Below are positions 48,776 to 55,577 of a DNA stretch of 64,000 bases, in pieces. The translations under genes were made by a program, and so were the position numbers. Location of the stretch: positions 1 through 64,000 of the forward strand of contig NZ_QJHB01000002.1 in assembly GCF_003260275.1 (NCBI RefSeq), given 5' to 3'. Numbering within the stretch: the stretch's first letter is position 1; every line of letters starts with the position of its first letter. The DNA is from Homoserinimonas sp. OAct 916. GTDB taxonomy: Bacteria > Actinomycetota > Actinomycetes > Actinomycetales > Microbacteriaceae. The notes under the pieces are model-generated. The model saw only the letters and a list, made by a program, of their open reading frames with translations. It was not told the DNA's origin and made no database searches.

Positions 48776-49918
48776 TCAGGTGCCGCTGGAGGGTGGGACG
48801 GTTTGCTGCTTGTTCCGGAAGGGGAGAGTGTTCAACACACCGTTGCGCAAGATGATGCCCGCTCGGGTCTTGGGTACGAGGAGGCGCGATGAGATGCCGG
48901 CGCCGCGTCGTAGCGGTCGGATGTGTTTGCGGTGCTTTTGTTGATAGTGCGCGAAGGCGGCGGTGTGATTGTCCGGGTATGCGGTAATTGCGTCGGCGAG
49001 GGTCTGGGCTCCGACGATCGCGCTGCTGGAGCCGTCACCGAACAGCGAGATGCAACTCGCCGCGTCACCGAGCAGCACCACGCGGCCGGCACTCCACTGC
49101 GGAACGTCCACACGGGTGACTTCGTCGAAGTACCTGTCATCGGACGCACCCCATGCCTTGAGGGCGAGTGTGGTGAGCCATCCGCCGCTGGCGTAGGTGG
49201 ATTCGACCAGGCGCCTGCCGTGTTCCGGATCTCGGTAGTCAAAATTGTGCTGCCCACGGAAGATGAACGCGAACCCGGGCTTACCGCCGGCCGGATGGAT
49301 GCTCAAGGAGGTTCCCGGTTCGTTGTACATCAACACGGTAAGTGGATCCTCAATCTGTAGAGGGGCCTGCACGGTGCCCACGAACATGCCGAAGGGGCGG
49401 GAAAAGTGTTCTTCGGGGCCGAAAGCCAAGCGCCGAACGGTGGAGTGCACTCCGTCGGCTCCGATCATCAGGTCGAACCGACGGGATGGGGTCCTTTCAA
49501 ACTCGACATCGATTCCGCCGCTGTCCTCATGCAAGACGGTGATCGAGTCATGCGGGATGATAAGGGTGCTCTCCCGTGCCTTATCGAGCAGCAAGTCGAC
49601 GAGTTCGTTGCGTGCGAGCTCAACTTCCTCGTGGTGGTCACCGGGTTTGTGGGTACGGATCGAAGCCCGTGGCCGCCCGTCAGCGTCGACAAAAGTCAGA
49701 CGATTGACCCCGGTGGCGGCCTCCTCCAGGCGCGGCCAAATACCCATTTGCCGTGCAATGGCGACCGCTTCACCGCGTACATCGACTGGGTTGCCGCTCG
49801 ATCGCGTGCCGTCCGCGCGTTCCACGATCGTGACCGACCAACCGGCCCTCGCCAGCCAGTACGCGACGGTCGCGCCAGCAACGCCGCCGCCGGAGACCAA
49901 GACGCTGCGATCCGTCAT
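48776..49918 (-). CDS. FAD-dependent monooxygenase (PHBH/TetX-like)
   Basis: A 380-residue class A flavin monooxygenase. The FAD dinucleotide motif is SVLVSGGGVAGATVAYWLAR, the DG motif region reads FDLMIGADGVHSTVRRL and the second FAD motif RVVLLGDAASCISLFGDGSS. The closest style is TetX-like or hydroxylase of aromatic or polyketide substrates. The N-terminal start ATG 49918 (MTDRSVLV) is preferred over the four-residue longer frame. The gene stands alone; a Rieske remnant lies about 140 bases upstream of it. Confidence 0.85.
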   Translation of the reverse strand: MTDRSVLVSGGGVAGATVAYWLARAGWSVTIVERADGTRSSGNPVDVRGEAVAIARQMGIWPRLEEAATGVNRLTFVDADGRPRASIRTHKPGDHHEEVELARNELVDLLLDKARESTLIIPHDSITVLHEDSGGIDVEFERTPSRRFDLMIGADGVHSTVRRLAFGPEEHFSRPFGMFVGTVQAPLQIEDPLTVLMYNEPGTSLSIHPAGGKPGFAFIFRGQHNFDYRDPEHGRRLVESTYASGGWLTTLALKAWGASDDRYFDEVTRVDVPQWSAGRVVLLGDAASCISLFGDGSSSAIVGAQTLADAITAYPDNHTAAFAHYQQKHRKHIRPLRRGAGISSRLLVPKTRAGIILRNGVLNTLPFRNKQQTVPPSSGT

Positions 49919-50299
49919 CCGTCCATTCAAGCACTTAACACCAGAGGCACTCAGAAGCAGAAGTAGTTTCGCTGCGCCGGATGAGGTTCCTACTCGGGCA
50001 GCCGGCCTTGGTCGAAAGCCGGCTCAGATCGTGTCGTGTCCGCCGGCTGGGGGCGGCTCGTGTGTTGAGTGTCCCTGGCATCAGAGCGTTTTCTCACTGC
50101 GAACCGGTGAAGTGATCCACGGGCCCGCCACGAGTGCACGGTCACGTTTGAGAAGCTGCACCGTGCCAGCGGCCCCTCATGGATATCCCACACGTGCGCG
50201 CAGCGAGTTCTAGAGTTCAGCGTTGCCGGCCACATCTGCGCGCCAGCTGCTGCCGTGCCTCAAAATTTCTGGGAGGGTGAACGCAAACGGTTCTGTGTT
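49919..50299. other. Intergenic region containing a Rieske remnant
   Basis: Apart from the short Rieske-like piece at 50055-50140, no gene is supported. The region separates the monooxygenase from the stress-response operon. Confidence 0.4.
50055..50140 (+). pseudogene. Rieske [2Fe-2S] domain remnant
   Basis: One frame encodes CVECPWHQSVFSLRTGEVIH followed by GPAT. This is the second half of a Rieske ferredoxin site (C-x-x-H) and the strand after it. The first C-x-H box and the rest of the domain are missing. It is a short fossil, perhaps of a dioxygenase ferredoxin. Confidence 0.6.
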
Positions 50300-50623
50300 C
50301 TATTCAATGTTCGCGATGAGGATTCGGATGCTGGCCACTGGTTGCGAATTTTGTCTGAAGTGGTCGACGAGGGTGTCATAGACCAGTCGGCAGAGGTCGG
50401 CGGCCGGGGTGTTCGTTGCAGCCCCAATCGTGAGTGCGACGGCGATTCCGCCGTCGGTTTCGGTGATCGAAATCGGCAGTGGTGCTGGTTGCTGCGTGAT
50501 CACCGAGACAACATTTTCGAGTATGGTCTGCGCGGCCGGTGCGGCGGGATAGACGGTTGCCACTCCGGGAATAGCCGTGGTCACGTTCAGAATTTCTTGT
50601 TGAAGATCGGTGGTCGTGGTCAT
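50300..50623 (-). CDS. Small Asp23/Gls24-operon protein
   Basis: A 107-residue protein, third gene of the sigma operon, overlapping the preceding gene by ATGA. The sequence (VTTAIPGVATVYPAAPAAQT, then GGIAVALTIGAATNTPAADL and RLVYDTLVDHF) has the strand-helix pattern of the Asp23/Gls24 fold without its N-terminal part. It is probably an envelope-stress component of unknown action. Confidence 0.6.
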   Translation of the reverse strand: MTTTTDLQQEILNVTTAIPGVATVYPAAPAAQTILENVVSVITQQPAPLPISITETDGGIAVALTIGAATNTPAADLCRLVYDTLVDHFRQNSQPVASIRILIANIE

Positions 50624-51252
50624 CGGGAACTACCTTTCGCCGCAGGATTATGCACGTCATCGACGGTAATGTCGACCCCGGCGATAGTGAGGTCGGTGTG
50701 CCGGATGAGTATCCCGTAGATCGCTTCACGGAGCCGATCGGCGGCGTCGGGAATGCTGGTTCCCCAGCCGATACTGGCATCCACGCTGATCGTGATCGGA
50801 GCACCTGGGGTGGTGACATCGCCGTCGAGCCGGCACCGACCAACCAGTAGCCCCTCGACCATGTCGCCGGCGGCACGGACGAGTCCGCGAACTGTGCCCT
50901 CGGTGATGGCGAGTTCGGCGGCAGGGTCGGGGTGGGTGACGGGGATGGTTCTACCGGCGCGGGAGTCACGGCTGATGTTGTGTAGGATCCCTGCCACCCA
51001 GGACTCATCCAGATCTGGTTCCGTCGATGCCTGTGCCTCGAGGAGCGTATCCGAGAGCCGATACAGTCGTTCGAGCGATGTCAGGGCAATCTGGCAACTC
51101 GGGGACGAATCGATCGATGCATCGGCGGGAGCACGCCCCGCGTCGAGGTAGTCGCTGAGTTCATCCAGGGTGTGCCCATCGAGCTCGGCCGGATCCCGCC
51201 GGGTGCGGTCAGCGTCGGTGGCCGGCTCGGAGTCGTTCTGGCTGTCGTTCAT
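50620..51252 (-). CDS. Asp23/Gls24-domain protein with N-terminal extension, sigma-linked
   Basis: A 210-residue protein. The N-terminal 85 residues are acidic and helical (LDGHTLDELSDYLDAGRAPA to a leucine-rich helix), reminiscent of cytoplasmic anti-sigma adaptors. The C-terminal part is Asp23-like: AELAITEGTVRGLVRAAGDM, then ITISVDASIGWGTSIPDAAD and IAGVDITVDDVHNP, the characteristic end of the fold. ATG 51252 has GGAGG seven bases upstream and overlaps the sigma factor stop. It may modulate the sigma factor; this is inference from coupling. Confidence 0.65.
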   Translation of the reverse strand: MNDSQNDSEPATDADRTRRDPAELDGHTLDELSDYLDAGRAPADASIDSSPSCQIALTSLERLYRLSDTLLEAQASTEPDLDESWVAGILHNISRDSRAGRTIPVTHPDPAAELAITEGTVRGLVRAAGDMVEGLLVGRCRLDGDVTTPGAPITISVDASIGWGTSIPDAADRLREAIYGILIRHTDLTIAGVDITVDDVHNPAAKGSSR

Positions 51253-51815
51253 CGCCATCCCTCCATCTCGCGGATCAGGTTCTTGCGGGCCCTCGCTATC
51301 AGCCCTCTGACCGTTGACGACGGCAGGTCGAGGTTCCGGCCGATCTCCAAGTAACTATAACCACCGATTTCGCGAAGCACCCAGCAACGGCGTTGCTGGT
51401 CAGGGAGATCGGAAAGGACTGCGTTCAGCGCTTGTTCCAACGACCTCTTCTCAACAAGCGCCGTGGGGATCTGATCATCCGGGATTCTCAGTTCATGGTC
51501 GGTGATATCGCCGTGCTCGCGACGGCGGCGGAGTACGTCGAGTGCCTTATTGGAGACGATCCGCATCAACCAACTCTTCACCGCGCCGGGATCCATAAGC
51601 TCTGGCAGGTGCTGCCAGGCCTGCACGAGAGATTCTTGCACGACATCATCCACGTCGGCGGTCGAGCCGAGAACCCGACCTGCGTAGACGCGTATCAGCA
51701 GACCGTATCGGCGCACCAGGGCTTCGAAGGCGCGAACGTCACCGTCGACAGCTCGACCGACGAGGATTCGGTCGCTTGCGACGGTCAGATCGATCGGCTG
51801 GTCCTGAGGGCCCAT
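51249..51815 (-). CDS. ECF-type RNA polymerase sigma factor
   Basis: A 188-residue sigma-70 family protein. Region 2 reads FEALVRRYGLLIRVYAGRVL then VDDVVQESLVQAWQHLPELM and WLMRIVSNKALDVLRRRREH. Region 4 has LSDLPDQQRRCWVLREIGGY and IGRNLDLPSSTVRGLIARAR. ATG 51815 is chosen; an upstream TTG at 51830 is also possible. The operon encodes two Asp23-type proteins after it and faces the five-gene Asp23 operon, which it probably controls. Confidence 0.9.
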   Translation of the reverse strand: MGPQDQPIDLTVASDRILVGRAVDGDVRAFEALVRRYGLLIRVYAGRVLGSTADVDDVVQESLVQAWQHLPELMDPGAVKSWLMRIVSNKALDVLRRRREHGDITDHELRIPDDQIPTALVEKRSLEQALNAVLSDLPDQQRRCWVLREIGGYSYLEIGRNLDLPSSTVRGLIARARKNLIREMEGWR

Positions 51816-51942
51816 ACCGTCATTCAACACCAGACAATGAACATTTCGCGAATAGGTTGTGACGAAAAGGCCATCCGCTTCGTCTTATAGGTAACAAAAC
51901 ACTTGTGCTGCACGATCGGGCACCCGACTAAGGAGTTACCTC

Positions 51943-52398
51943 ATGGCAACCAACACCCCCACCCCCACCCCCACCCCCTCCGCCGCATCAGCCGGTATCG
52001 AGAACGGACACGCGACTCTCGGTCGAACCATCATCAATGACGGTGTCATCTCCCGGGTCGCCGGCATCGCCGCTCGCGACGCACGCGGCGTGTACGCGCT
52101 CGGCGGCGGAGCAGCACGGGCGATCGGCGCCATCCGTGACGCCTTCAGCGCCACCGACCAGAGCCAGGGCATCAGCGTCGAAGTGGGCGAAACCCAGGTC
52201 GCGGTCGACGTCACGATCGTAGCTGAATACCCGATGCCGCTCCAGGGCGTGGCCGACGGTGTCCGCTCCGCTGTGATCCACGCCATCGAGACGATCGTGG
52301 GCATGGAGGTCACCGAGGTCAACGTGACTGTGAATGACGTGCACCTGCCCTCCGATGAGGATGCCAGGGATGAGACTGTAGAGGCGCGAGTCCAGTGA
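51943..52398 (+). CDS. Asp23/Gls24 family envelope stress response protein
   Basis: A 151-residue cytoplasmic protein with the full Asp23 fold: GRTIINDGVISRVAGIAARD, GVYALGG, then ISVEVGETQVAVDVTIVAEY and TEVNVTVNDVHLPSDED. The N-terminus has a Thr-Pro repeat coded by CCCCCA units. AAGGAG precedes ATG 51943. It is the first of five genes joined by four-base overlaps. Asp23 proteins are peripheral membrane proteins held by an AmaP-like anchor and respond to cell-wall stress. Confidence 0.85.
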   Translation: MATNTPTPTPTPSAASAGIENGHATLGRTIINDGVISRVAGIAARDARGVYALGGGAARAIGAIRDAFSATDQSQGISVEVGETQVAVDVTIVAEYPMPLQGVADGVRSAVIHAIETIVGMEVTEVNVTVNDVHLPSDEDARDETVEARVQ

Positions 52399-52592
52399 TC
52401 TCCTCCGCCACGCGCACCGGAATCTTCGTCGGGGCGCTCCTCGCACTGACTTGGATCGTTCTCGGTTTCTGGCCGTTCGTGTTCGTCGCCGTGGCCATGG
52501 CAATCGGTGCGGTTCTGGGCCGGATCGCAGAAGGCAAAATCAGCATGGCCGGTCTTGTCGACGCGTTCCGCGGCAAGCGGTCGTCGTCATGA
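52395..52592 (+). CDS. DUF2273-like small membrane protein
   Basis: A 65-residue protein with two hydrophobic helices (TGIFVGALLALTWIVLGFWP and VFVAVAMAIGAVLGRI) and a basic end. Such small proteins regularly accompany AmaP and Asp23. The GTG start overlaps the preceding stop (GTGA). Confidence 0.75.
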   Translation: MISSATRTGIFVGALLALTWIVLGFWPFVFVAVAMAIGAVLGRIAEGKISMAGLVDAFRGKRSSS

Positions 52593-52969
52593 GTGATGCC
52601 GCGATCACTGCGGACGGTGCAGGACAACGCGGCCGCAACCGCATCACGAACAAATCGCTCAAGGCGGTGGTGTCTGCGGTGACCGCGGACACTCTCGGGG
52701 TGGACGCGCGCCGGGTCGTCGTCGATCTTTCTGACCAGAAGGGTGCTCTTGCAGTGTCGGTGACCACGTCGATCAGAGTTGTGTCGCTTGATCGCGTCCA
52801 CGGCGAACCATCCGTCGTCGCCCGCTCCGGCGGGTCGATTATGGAACGCACCACCCACGCACAGGAGAGCATTCGTGACAGGGTGAATTACCTCACCGGG
52901 TACACGATCGGCCGAGTGACGGTGCGAGTCAGCGGTCTGAGCATCCAACCGGAGGAACGTGTCCGATGA
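52589..52969 (+). CDS. Asp23/Gls24-like protein
   Basis: A 126-residue protein with an Asp23-like pattern: RITNKSLKAVVSAVTADTLG, RRVVVDLSDQKGALAVSVTT and YTIGRVTVRVSGLSI at the end. It is shorter than the first Asp23 gene. ATGA overlaps join it to both neighbours. Confidence 0.7.
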   Translation: MSDAAITADGAGQRGRNRITNKSLKAVVSAVTADTLGVDARRVVVDLSDQKGALAVSVTTSIRVVSLDRVHGEPSVVARSGGSIMERTTHAQESIRDRVNYLTGYTIGRVTVRVSGLSIQPEERVR

Positions 52970-53544
52970 TCTCAAACCGATACCACGCTCGCATCACCCG
53001 CCGCGAAACCCACTCACCCCGATCCCTGCTTGCGATCATTCTCGCCGTCATCCTCATCATCGTCTTCTCGTGGATCGGGACCGAAATCGTGCTCGCCCTG
53101 CTCGGCCTCCGCGCACTTCTGGTCGCCCCGGTCGATATGTTCACCTCCGCGGTCAACGTCGTCGCTGAGCCGACCGGCGCAGTCGCAGTAGTCGGGATAG
53201 TGGTTGCGGTGGTCGGTCTCATCCTGGTCGTCGCCGCTGTCTCCCCTGGCCGCCGAGCCCGTCATGTGCTTGTGACCGAGCGTGCAGCAACAGTCGTCGA
53301 CAACGAAGTGATTGCGTCCGCACTGGCCAGGCACGCCGCCTATGCGGCAAATGTTGACCCCGACAGCACCACCGTGTCAGTATCCCGGCGACACGCGGTC
53401 GTGCACCTCACCCCTACATCCGGGGTGCCGGTGGACCGTTATGAAGTCGCCGACGTGGCGGCCAAGCAGCTCGAATCGTACGGGCTACGCCGACCGGTCC
53501 TCGCGCGCGTGCAGATCGACGAGAGGGGGAGAGTGGGCGCATGA
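52966..53544 (+). CDS. Membrane protein of the Asp23 cluster (DUF6286-like)
   Basis: A 192-residue protein with two membrane helices (SLLAIILAVILIIVFSWIGT and AVAVVGIVVAVVGLILVVAA) and a soluble C-terminal domain ending in VLARVQIDERGRVGA. Homologues occur only next to Asp23 genes in actinobacteria. The precise function is unknown; it is possibly a membrane anchor. Confidence 0.7.
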   Translation: MISNRYHARITRRETHSPRSLLAIILAVILIIVFSWIGTEIVLALLGLRALLVAPVDMFTSAVNVVAEPTGAVAVVGIVVAVVGLILVVAAVSPGRRARHVLVTERAATVVDNEVIASALARHAAYAANVDPDSTTVSVSRRHAVVHLTPTSGVPVDRYEVADVAAKQLESYGLRRPVLARVQIDERGRVGA

Positions 53545-54146
53545 ACAACACCAACCGTGCGCTGAACCGGCTGCTGATATTCTTCTGCGGGCTCCTTCTT
53601 TTGGTCGTCGGCGCCGGCGCGGCTGCCGGGGTGCTCGTCCCTGCCTTCCGGGACTGGTGGAAGGGCGCGACCACCGGCGCCACCGTGCAGGTGTCGACCT
53701 GGCTGCGTCAGACGCCGCTTGGGAACACCGGAGTGAGTTGGATCATGCCGGCAATCCTTCTGCTCCTTCTTATCGCCGTAATCGTTCTGATCGCATTCAT
53801 TACCCGGCAGGGGCACGGCCACACTGGCGTCGCGGTTTACGAGCGCTCCAGTGAGACGGGCACAACGATCATCGACTCGGCCGTGCCAGAGCACGCCATC
53901 CAAGATGCACTCAGCCGCCGACCCGAGTTCGTCACGTCCCACGTCTCCACATACCAGGTGCGCCGCACCCCGGTGCTGAAGGTCTCGGTCACGTGCCGCC
54001 GCGGAGTGTCGCCCAAGGACGCGGCCACGATCATCGAAGACAAACTTCGGGCCCTCGACGAACTGCTGGGCAGGCAACTGCCGGCGCTGATCCAGATCAG
54101 TGGCGGTTTTCGTGCCAACCTGACCAAATCGACCCGTTTGCAATAG
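53541..54146 (+). CDS. AmaP-like alkaline shock membrane anchor protein
   Basis: A 201-residue protein with two membrane helices (LLIFFCGLLLLVVGAGAAAG and a second at about residues 68-87) separated by a 35-residue loop, then a soluble domain with beta-alpha pattern (TPVLKVSVTCRRGVSPKDAA to LPALIQISGGF). It resembles AmaP, which anchors Asp23 at the membrane. It is the last gene of the five-gene operon, followed by tRNA-Met. Confidence 0.7.
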   Translation: MNNTNRALNRLLIFFCGLLLLVVGAGAAAGVLVPAFRDWWKGATTGATVQVSTWLRQTPLGNTGVSWIMPAILLLLLIAVIVLIAFITRQGHGHTGVAVYERSSETGTTIIDSAVPEHAIQDALSRRPEFVTSHVSTYQVRRTPVLKVSVTCRRGVSPKDAATIIEDKLRALDELLGRQLPALIQISGGFRANLTKSTRLQ

Positions 54147-54188
54147 CCACAGCTAAGACAAGAAACCCTGATCAAACAATGTTCAAAG

Positions 54189-54262
54189 TAGGGCGGACGG
54201 GACTTGAACCCGTGACCGACGGATTATGAGTCCGCTGCTCTAACCAGCTGAGCTACCGCCCC
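54189..54262 (-). tRNA. tRNA-Met (anticodon CAT)
   Basis: A full cloverleaf on the minus strand: acceptor GGGGCGG, D arm TAGCTCAGCTGGTTAGAGC, anticodon stem GCGGA with loop CTCATAA, T loop TTCAAGT. CCA is not encoded. The CAT anticodon could also be tRNA-Ile2 with a modified C; the elongator Met type is more likely. Confidence 0.9.
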
Positions 54263-54278
54263 GTGTTGCCGACCGAGG

Positions 54279-55577
54279 CTAGTCGGTCGGGATGATCGGT
54301 ATCGCTTCGGTGACCGGAGCGGACACCGCCTCTCCACGATACAGGCTCTCAAAGGTGGCCAGAGTACGGTTGATGTCGTGCGCCTTGATGTGTTTGAGCG
54401 ACTTCATCTTCATGATGCCCAACTCCTCGGCCGAGGCGGTGAACACGGCGGCGAGCTTATCGGCCATGTCTTGCGCATTACCCGGCTCAAAGAGGTAGCC
54501 ATTACCGTCGTGCACCAGGTGCGGCAACGCCATCGCGTTCGCGGCGACCACCGGCAGCCCTGACGACATCGCTTCCATCGTCGCGATCGACTGCAACTCC
54601 GCTATCGACGGCATGCCGAACACAGTGGCCCGCGTATAGGCGGCCTTCAGCTCTTCGTCAGTGACATAACCGGTGAATGTCACCCGGTCTGCGATTCCGA
54701 GAGTGACCGCGAGATTCTGAAGATTCTTCAGCTGGTCGCCGCCACCAACAATCTCGAGCTTCACATCGAGAGAGACCGGCAGCAGCTTCACCGCTTTCAA
54801 CAGCACATCGATGTGCTTCTCCCCCGTCACCCGGCCGACGAACAAGACCCGGTTCTCGGTGCGTGGCTCGAAGTTAGGCGTGTATTTGGAAGAATCGATG
54901 CCGCAGGAGATGGCGTACACCCCGGTGAGGCCGGTGTACTTCTCCAAGAACTGGGCGGCGCGCTTGGTCGGTGTGGTGACCGCTGCGGCACGGCCGAACG
55001 TGCGCCTGGCTGCCCGCCAGGCCATCTGAATAGCCCGGTGTTGAAGCCACTTGGGCAGGAGCGTGAACTCCAGCATGTTCTCGGGCATGAAGTGATTCGT
55101 CCCGATGATACGGATGCCGCGCTTGCTGGCCTCTTGGCTCAGCCCCCGGCCAACGATGATGTGTGATTGAAAATGCACCACGTCTGGTTTCACTTCGTCC
55201 AGTATCCGGGCGCTGTTCTGCTTGATCCGCCAGGGGATCGCGAATCGCAGCCAATCATGCGGATACCAGCGCCAGCTGTGCAGGCGGTGCACCATGACCG
55301 GTTGACCCTCAAACATTTCGATCCCGGTGTGCTGGCGCCCGGTCGCACTGGGAGCCATGACGTGCACATCGTGCCCCCGCGCGACCAGTCCTGCGCTGAG
55401 ACGTTCGGCAAACTTTGCAGCACCATTCACATCAGGTGCGAAGGTGTCACACCCGATCAGGATGCGTAGCGGCCTGCCGTTGGCACTCGACGCACCGGCG
55501 TTCCCGGGAGTGCTGGAAGGGCTGGAGTTATTGGCGTCGCCGGGCACGGGCGTGCCCATTTCAGGCGTTGTTGGCAA
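54279..55577 (-). CDS. GT4-family glycosyltransferase
   Basis: A 432-residue GT-B enzyme. After a disordered 35-residue leader, the N-terminal domain starts LRILIGCDTFAPDVNGAAKF. The second domain has NRVLFVGRVTGEKHIDVLLK and the donor site FGMPSIAELQSIATMEAMSS with the E-x7-E pattern, then GLPVVAANAMALPHLVHDGN. It probably acts in the envelope, for instance on phosphatidylinositol or diacylglycerol acceptors, as actinobacterial members do. The gene stands alone after tRNA-Met. Confidence 0.88.
   Translation of the reverse strand: MPTTPEMGTPVPGDANNSSPSSTPGNAGASSANGRPLRILIGCDTFAPDVNGAAKFAERLSAGLVARGHDVHVMAPSATGRQHTGIEMFEGQPVMVHRLHSWRWYPHDWLRFAIPWRIKQNSARILDEVKPDVVHFQSHIIVGRGLSQEASKRGIRIIGTNHFMPENMLEFTLLPKWLQHRAIQMAWRAARRTFGRAAAVTTPTKRAAQFLEKYTGLTGVYAISCGIDSSKYTPNFEPRTENRVLFVGRVTGEKHIDVLLKAVKLLPVSLDVKLEIVGGGDQLKNLQNLAVTLGIADRVTFTGYVTDEELKAAYTRATVFGMPSIAELQSIATMEAMSSGLPVVAANAMALPHLVHDGNGYLFEPGNAQDMADKLAAVFTASAEELGIMKMKSLKHIKAHDINRTLATFESLYRGEAVSAPVTEAIPIIPTD

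Follow-up and report, generated by a model that had tools for sequence, protein, structure and literature searches.

An ECF sigma factor gene and an overlapping gene for a probable Asp23-domain anti-sigma factor face an Asp23 envelope operon in Homoserinimonas

Genes at the locus

The stretch of DNA analysed here, called the window, comprises 64,000 nucleotides of Homoserinimonas sp. OAct 916 (contig NZ_QJHB01000002.1, positions 1 to 64,000) and contains two facing operons at positions 50300-54146. On the minus strand, the gene of a 193-residue extracytoplasmic function (ECF) sigma factor (51249-51830) is followed by that of a 210-residue Asp23-domain protein (50620-51252), for which we coin the name AsdA, and by a third gene encoding 107 residues (50300-50623). 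Each of the three overlaps the next by 4 bases, so that the ATG of asdA overlaps the sigma stop codon. The sigma factor is assigned by scores well over the curated cut-offs for Sigma70_r2 (57.8 bits; cut-off 24), Sigma70_r4_2 (48.2; 25.7) and TIGR02937 (87.2; 42.9). We conclude that the sigma factor and AsdA probably constitute a self-contained sigma/anti-sigma switch governing the facing Asp23 envelope operon.

That operon (51943-54146, plus strand) consists of five genes with a 4-base overlap at every junction. It encodes the Asp23 family protein asp1 (51943-52398; 151 aa; Pfam Asp23, 84.4 bits), a small DUF2273 membrane protein (52395-52592; 65 aa; 32.5 bits, cut-off 25.4), a second Asp23-like protein, asp2 (52589-52969; 126 aa; 20.6 bits, below the cut-off of 28), a DUF6286-like membrane protein (52966-53544; 192 aa; 33.4 bits, just under the cut-off of 35) and a membrane anchor (53541-54146; 201 aa). 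The anchor reaches 29.2 bits in NCBIfam AmaP (NF033218), below the equivalog cut-off of 55, and is termed AmaP-like only; all assignments under curated cut-offs are to be read as likenesses. The gene layout, its coordinates, the overlap of sigma and asdA and the facing five-gene operon, as described in an earlier note on this DNA, are borne out.

A fixed gene pair of sigma factor and AsdA

Conservation of the arrangement was assessed in 114 related loci. These comprised 15 from a search of 59 relatives (17 rows less the window's own match and one weak Asp23-only match), the best 80 of 163 confirmed named loci (from records named Herbiconiux, Subtercola, Agreia, Microbacterium, Leucobacter, Cryobacterium, Promicromonospora and others) and 19 from a search across the order (its strongest rows less the own match and one locus already included). 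The asdA gene is directly preceded by a sigma gene in all 114, and a start codon allowing the 4-base overlap is present in 113, the exception being L093, whose sigma frame is broken in its record. In the first 15 loci, a ribosome-binding site, mostly ATGGAGG, is embedded in the overlap. Recurrence of the overlap in the related loci excludes a chance arrangement.

The pairing extends well beyond close relatives. Of 23 distant or plasmid loci, 22 have a sigma gene immediately ahead of asdA; among the 17 top-listed loci from other families of the class, a sigma stop codon is found no more than 102 bases from the match in 16, the distance in the remaining one (L303) being 402 bases. Three pairs (L250, L251 and L252) reside on plasmids, of Microbacterium proteolyticum, Streptomyces anulatus and an Arthrobacter, and on the latter two the Asp23 operon adjoins the pair. 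Several genomes (G004, G007, G011, G031, G035 and G160) carry two AsdA genes. The canonical Asp23 gene, asp1, is found within the fetched stretch in 100 of the 114 close loci, on the strand opposite to the pair in 42 and on the same strand in 58, and all four partner genes were found in 60. Within the window's family, 9 of 35 genomes possess a close AsdA together with asp1 and none has just one of the two; asp1 occurs without a close AsdA in 5 of 23 genomes from other families of the order.

These distributions bear on the idea that AsdA is simply a further structural Asp23 protein, co-transcribed with the sigma factor by happenstance while the latter is regulated otherwise. The Asp23 domain of AsdA is clear in structural models and unlinked Asp23 proteins do exist in the family, as this idea would have it; yet the overlap is fixed in 113 of 114 loci, the pairing spans families and plasmids, and AsdA has an extra N-terminal domain that is absent from the other Asp23 proteins of the window. 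We consider the purely structural role improbable.

Two domains in AsdA

The C-terminal part of AsdA (residues 114-203; 50644-50913, minus strand) is Asp23-like. Its score in Pfam Asp23 (PF03780) is 22.4 bits, under the cut-off of 28, over residues 123-203 of a 212-residue reading of the protein, and a Streptomyces relative passes the same cut-off with 28.4 bits. In a fold search with the full AlphaFold model, matches arise via the Asp23 domain only and are of the alpha/beta type seen in C-terminal domains of cation diffusion facilitators, such as the MamM C-terminal domain (Z 10.6; root-mean-square deviation 2.1; 78 aligned).

The N-terminal part (residues 25-99; 50956-51180) is a conserved domain in alignments of AsdA relatives, and it resembles a zinc-type (class I) anti-sigma domain that has decayed, judged from alignments, profile comparison and the helices of the model. 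Some relatives show the zinc-type signature, among them L032 with C-G-H ... H-L-E-S-C-P-E-C. Of the 114 aligned sequences (the window and 113 loci, L093 having been dropped), 12 contain both motif cysteines and 7 the complete HxxxCxxC; the window's own pattern, D-H-S-S-C at positions 25, 27, 46, 50 and 53, is shared by 68. Having S46, S50 and C53, the window's AsdA itself lacks HxxxCxxC, retaining fragments of the signature, and is for this reason not filed with the zinc-binding subtype (ZAS). Of the 22 distant or plasmid pairs, 11 retain the complete motif, those on the Streptomyces anulatus and Arthrobacter plasmids among them, and a further one keeps the cysteines and lacks the histidine; CG...HxxxCxxC is present in all 17 full-length loci from other families of the class at the top of the match list. 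Taken across the close, distant and class-level sets, these counts indicate that the zinc site has decayed progressively, with the window's branch as the end point. Release of zinc as the signal in the window was set aside, since the ligands are mostly missing, and sensing of this kind is unlikely in the whole branch on the same grounds; in relatives with an intact C...HxxxCxxC, zinc sensing may be an addition.

Resemblance to the class I domain was quantified by profile comparison to an alignment of 28 zinc-type domains, with 100 column-permuted alignments as control. Scores of 31.5 for all 114 sequences, 42.7 for the 12 cysteine members, 41.2 for a 10-member subset of these and 22.1 for the 102 sequences lacking Cys50 each exceeded all 100 permuted controls, as did the score of 34.5 for the distant AsdA set. 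The profile probability was 83% for all 114 and 95% for the 12 cysteine members. Both the gene position beside an ECF sigma factor (114 of 114) and the profile similarity are as found in class I anti-sigma domains (ASDI). The top match of the AsdA family in profile searches of the PDB is 3hug_B (E 0.052 and 0.033), which is labelled as a probable conserved membrane protein and which we take to be RslA, an anti-sigma factor; DdvA, another anti-sigma factor, ranks third in one search (E 0.36) and last of seven in the other (E 1.4). The AlphaFold model of AsdA (mean predicted local distance difference test score 80.5) has helices at residues 29-37, 45-48, 51-74 and 83-98, followed by the Asp23 domain. 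A class I domain has a bundle of three helices and a fourth helix; the model predicts helices in such an order, but the fold search gave no match to a domain of this kind. W85, at the start of helix 4, is kept in 110 of the 114 aligned sequences and replaced by F in the other 4, and the accessible text of a survey of anti-sigma domains reports a conserved W/Y of helix 4 as touching the sigma factor in some other anti-sigma groups (PMC7406223). In the interface given by that survey, helix 4 lies against sigma region 2 and helix 1 against region 4. Covariation inside AsdA links positions 20-27 to 46 or 50, that is, the ligand region, in 5 of the 15 highest-ranking pairs.

Several results weigh against this assignment. 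The profile probability is just 23% for the 102 members without Cys50, the window included, and the claim for the window's AsdA thus rests largely on its relatives. The E-values from the PDB are weak, with zinc fingers and SecE2 ranking between the two anti-sigma entries, and the Pfam zf-HC2 profile picks up a single member in each of two sets, of 13 and of 16, at an E-value of 0.076 that falls under the cut-off. A fold search with the N-terminal model returned no anti-sigma domain (best Z 3.2), an absence that is not probative. The residue pairs that covary most strongly between sigma factor and AsdA (over 114 protein pairs; effective number 75.5) show no preference for the N-terminal domain, and the clade-specific columns G129/D130 dominate among them. 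Finally, 10 of the 22 distant pairs have a short N-terminus from which the HxxxCxxC domain is wholly missing. This short AsdA branch, which keeps the overlapping sigma gene, comprises L148-L151, L153, L156-L158, L161 and L164.

These ten pairs, which retain an Asp23 partner without the anti-sigma motif, fit a reading in which AsdA binds the sigma factor as a positive partner, for instance as a co-activator or for delivery to or from the membrane, rather than as an inhibitor. The linkage and promoter data would fit any tight functional partner equally. Speaking for inhibition is the resemblance of the AsdA N-terminus to domains known, from the portion of a review used here, for sigma inhibition (PMC8999054). 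A positive role is, in our estimate, unlikely, and AsdA is treated in the following as a probable anti-sigma factor.

Of the third gene in the sigma operon, an open reading frame is found in the same position in 107 of 114 loci, and 101 of 108 of its proteins, the window's included, fall into one hidden Markov model family. Comparison to the Asp23 fold gave a score of 34.0 and a probability of 78%; 1 of 100 permuted alignments scored higher, which makes the assignment of a short Asp23-like fold tentative.

A conserved promoter upstream of asp1

The tetranucleotide CGTC is typical for -10 elements of ECF promoters. The Asp23 operon has a predicted conserved promoter of this type, GTGAC-N17-CGTC, which in the window reads GTGACG-N16-CGTCTTA (51859-51887, plus strand) and was recognized from conservation of upstream regions. 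When spaced pairs of four-base words were counted in 91 de-duplicated asp1 upstream regions, GTGA-N18-CGTC was present in 72, compared to 9 for the best pair in five shuffles; over all 100 regions, the pair is found 80 times with a spacing of N18, twice with N17 and never with N19. Scored with a leave-one-out matrix, 92 of the 100 regions surpass every one of 2280 control stretches, from which the site of the respective locus was left out, and 98 attain the 99th percentile; near relatives stay in training under the leave-one-out procedure, and removal of near-duplicates leaves the said 91 of 100 regions.

The site is nearly unique in the genome. The strict pattern has its single match in the own genome at 51859-51887, and a looser pattern adds three more, all within long reading frames. 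Ten genomes of the family that contain the pair, the own included, give 14 strict matches, of which, by position, 10 are before asp1, one is before a sigma gene (L274) and three are elsewhere. In 26 genomes of the family without the pair there are 5 matches, all inside reading frames of more than 150 residues, and 23 genomes of other families give 8. Promoter scores do not exceed 0.3 for six asp1 regions from five genomes that lack a close AsdA; two of the six adjoin a diverged sigma gene. Of 22 asp1 regions from distant, plasmid or class-level loci, 12 attain the 99th percentile and 1 is above the control maximum.

Two observations count against a general link of sigma factor and Asp23 operon. 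On the Streptomyces plasmid, the region ahead of asp1 has no good match to the matrix. In the pair-bearing genomes, a strong promoter is present at only four of nine Asp23 operons located far from the sigma gene (L217, L218, L223 and L234; scores 28.2, 25.3, 25.3 and 32.9), with one intermediate (13.0) and four having none. The four strong sites might also be taken to mean that GTGAC-N17-CGTC is read by another sigma factor and that the neighbouring one serves other genes, given that the assignment of the promoter relies on linkage and conservation. All four are nonetheless in genomes that bear the pair, the asp1 regions in the five genomes without a close AsdA score 0.3 or less (two of the six beside a diverged sigma gene), the site at L028 and L170 precedes the sigma gene itself, and the own genome has no other strict match. 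Reading by a different sigma factor therefore has little probability in our view, and assignment of the promoter to the sigma factor encoded next to AsdA is retained.

At L028 and L170, which have no asp1 nearby, the high-scoring site is ∼220-243 bases upstream of the sigma gene, which suggests autoregulation of the sigma factor in these two loci. In the direction of the sigma gene itself, the spaced pattern occurs at 2 of 114 loci. Since the promoter elements are partly self-complementary (GACG ... CGTC), weak firing toward the sigma gene is possible in divergent loci, and the promoter at 51859-51887 might fire weakly in reverse in this way; scores in the reverse direction are ∼11 in L030 and L067. 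A scan of 49900-54400 for sigma-70 promoters and terminators gave no excess over shuffled sequences. A gene for tRNA-Met (54188-54262, minus strand) is located just 3' of the Asp23 operon on the opposite strand.

Discussion

Gene layout and its conservation, domain resemblance, and conservation and near-uniqueness of the promoter in the genome are the direct observations of this study, and we infer from them the binding and inhibition of the sigma factor, the assignment of the promoter to it and the nature of the signal, as follows. The N-terminal class I-type domain of AsdA would bind the ECF sigma factor and thus keep it off RNA polymerase. A signal received via the C-terminal Asp23 domain, most likely an altered contact with the membrane scaffold of Asp23/AmaP type, would loosen the grip, and the released sigma factor would read GTGAC-N17-CGTC to have the Asp23 operon transcribed. 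AsdA would accordingly share the soluble architecture of ChrR, with an N-terminal anti-sigma domain and a C-terminal sensor, Asp23 serving as sensor and the Asp23 operon as main target. The earlier note had described the AsdA N-terminus as acidic and helical and had proposed an Asp23-fold protein, "not a classical anti-sigma", as regulator of the sigma factor. The quoted wording is only half right, because the AsdA N-terminus resembles the classical domain in degenerate form. AsdA as the regulator gains indirect support from the conserved overlap and the anti-sigma-like N-terminus, with the qualification that the gripping part is likely the N-terminal domain, and the Asp23 fold likely a sensor or tether. 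The suggested link of the sigma factor to the Asp23 operon is likewise supported indirectly, through the promoter, with the sigma factor as activator.

RslA (3hug), presumably from the RslA/SigL system of Mycobacterium tuberculosis, heads the PDB profile matches of the AsdA family; the match is, however, weak and confined to the motif region, and RslA is not an Asp23 protein. The Asp23/AmaP operon of Staphylococcus aureus is under SigB control, and to our knowledge no Asp23-domain anti-sigma factor occurs in that organism. It has in common with the present locus Asp23, a membrane anchor and a link to the envelope: according to the part of the literature source considered, S. aureus Asp23 makes filaments, cells that lose asp23 or amaP mount the cell wall stress response, and what Asp23 proteins do at the molecular level is not yet clear (PMC6954212). 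Also close to AsdA are Asp23-family proteins encoded beside sigma factors of groups ECF286 and ECF292, where an ECF sigma gene adjoins that of a soluble Asp23-family protein predicted, and so far untested, as its anti-sigma factor; the portion of the review used here names neither an anti-sigma domain nor a promoter for them and lists zinc-type groups apart (PMC8999054). ChrR, the partner of RpoE in Rhodobacter sphaeroides, is similarly soluble, with an N-terminal zinc-type domain and a C-terminal sensor domain, but its sensor is cupin-like and responds to singlet oxygen, whereas AsdA has Asp23 as second domain and, in the window, a degenerate zinc site (same portion of PMC8999054). The word Asp23 is absent from the accessible main text of the anti-sigma domain survey (PMC7406223). 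Literature on Asp23/DUF322 together with sigma or anti-sigma factors, most matches being covered by title and the source classification of ECF286/ECF292 lying outside it, yielded no description of the AsdA domain or the promoter, and no laboratory test of the arrangement, recurrent as it is in many actinomycetes, was found in the literature searched. The Asp23-type anti-sigma factor is thus known as a prediction; new within that literature are the anti-sigma domain, the decay of its zinc site and the promoter linking the sigma factor to the Asp23 operon.

The anti-sigma factor and its target share the Asp23 domain, and a more speculative reading follows from this, to which we give distinctly less than an even chance: a homeostat working by domain matching, in which AsdA would directly read how far the Asp23 scaffold at the membrane is assembled. 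By assembling together with Asp23 and the anchors, AsdA might free the sigma factor under envelope stress, or relock it once the scaffold is in excess. The zinc switch would have been discarded in the window's branch, and contact to Asp23 would there be the sole remaining sensor.

Our study has importance in tying the Asp23 domain to a readable output, consisting of one sigma factor, one conserved promoter and one operon, so that sensing or binding by Asp23 becomes testable via a promoter reporter in a non-pathogenic actinomycete. It turns the listed prediction of an Asp23-type anti-sigma factor into a concrete hypothesis of domain and promoter that covers several families of the class. The likely brake on the sigma factor shares its domain with the envelope proteins that the sigma factor appears to switch on.

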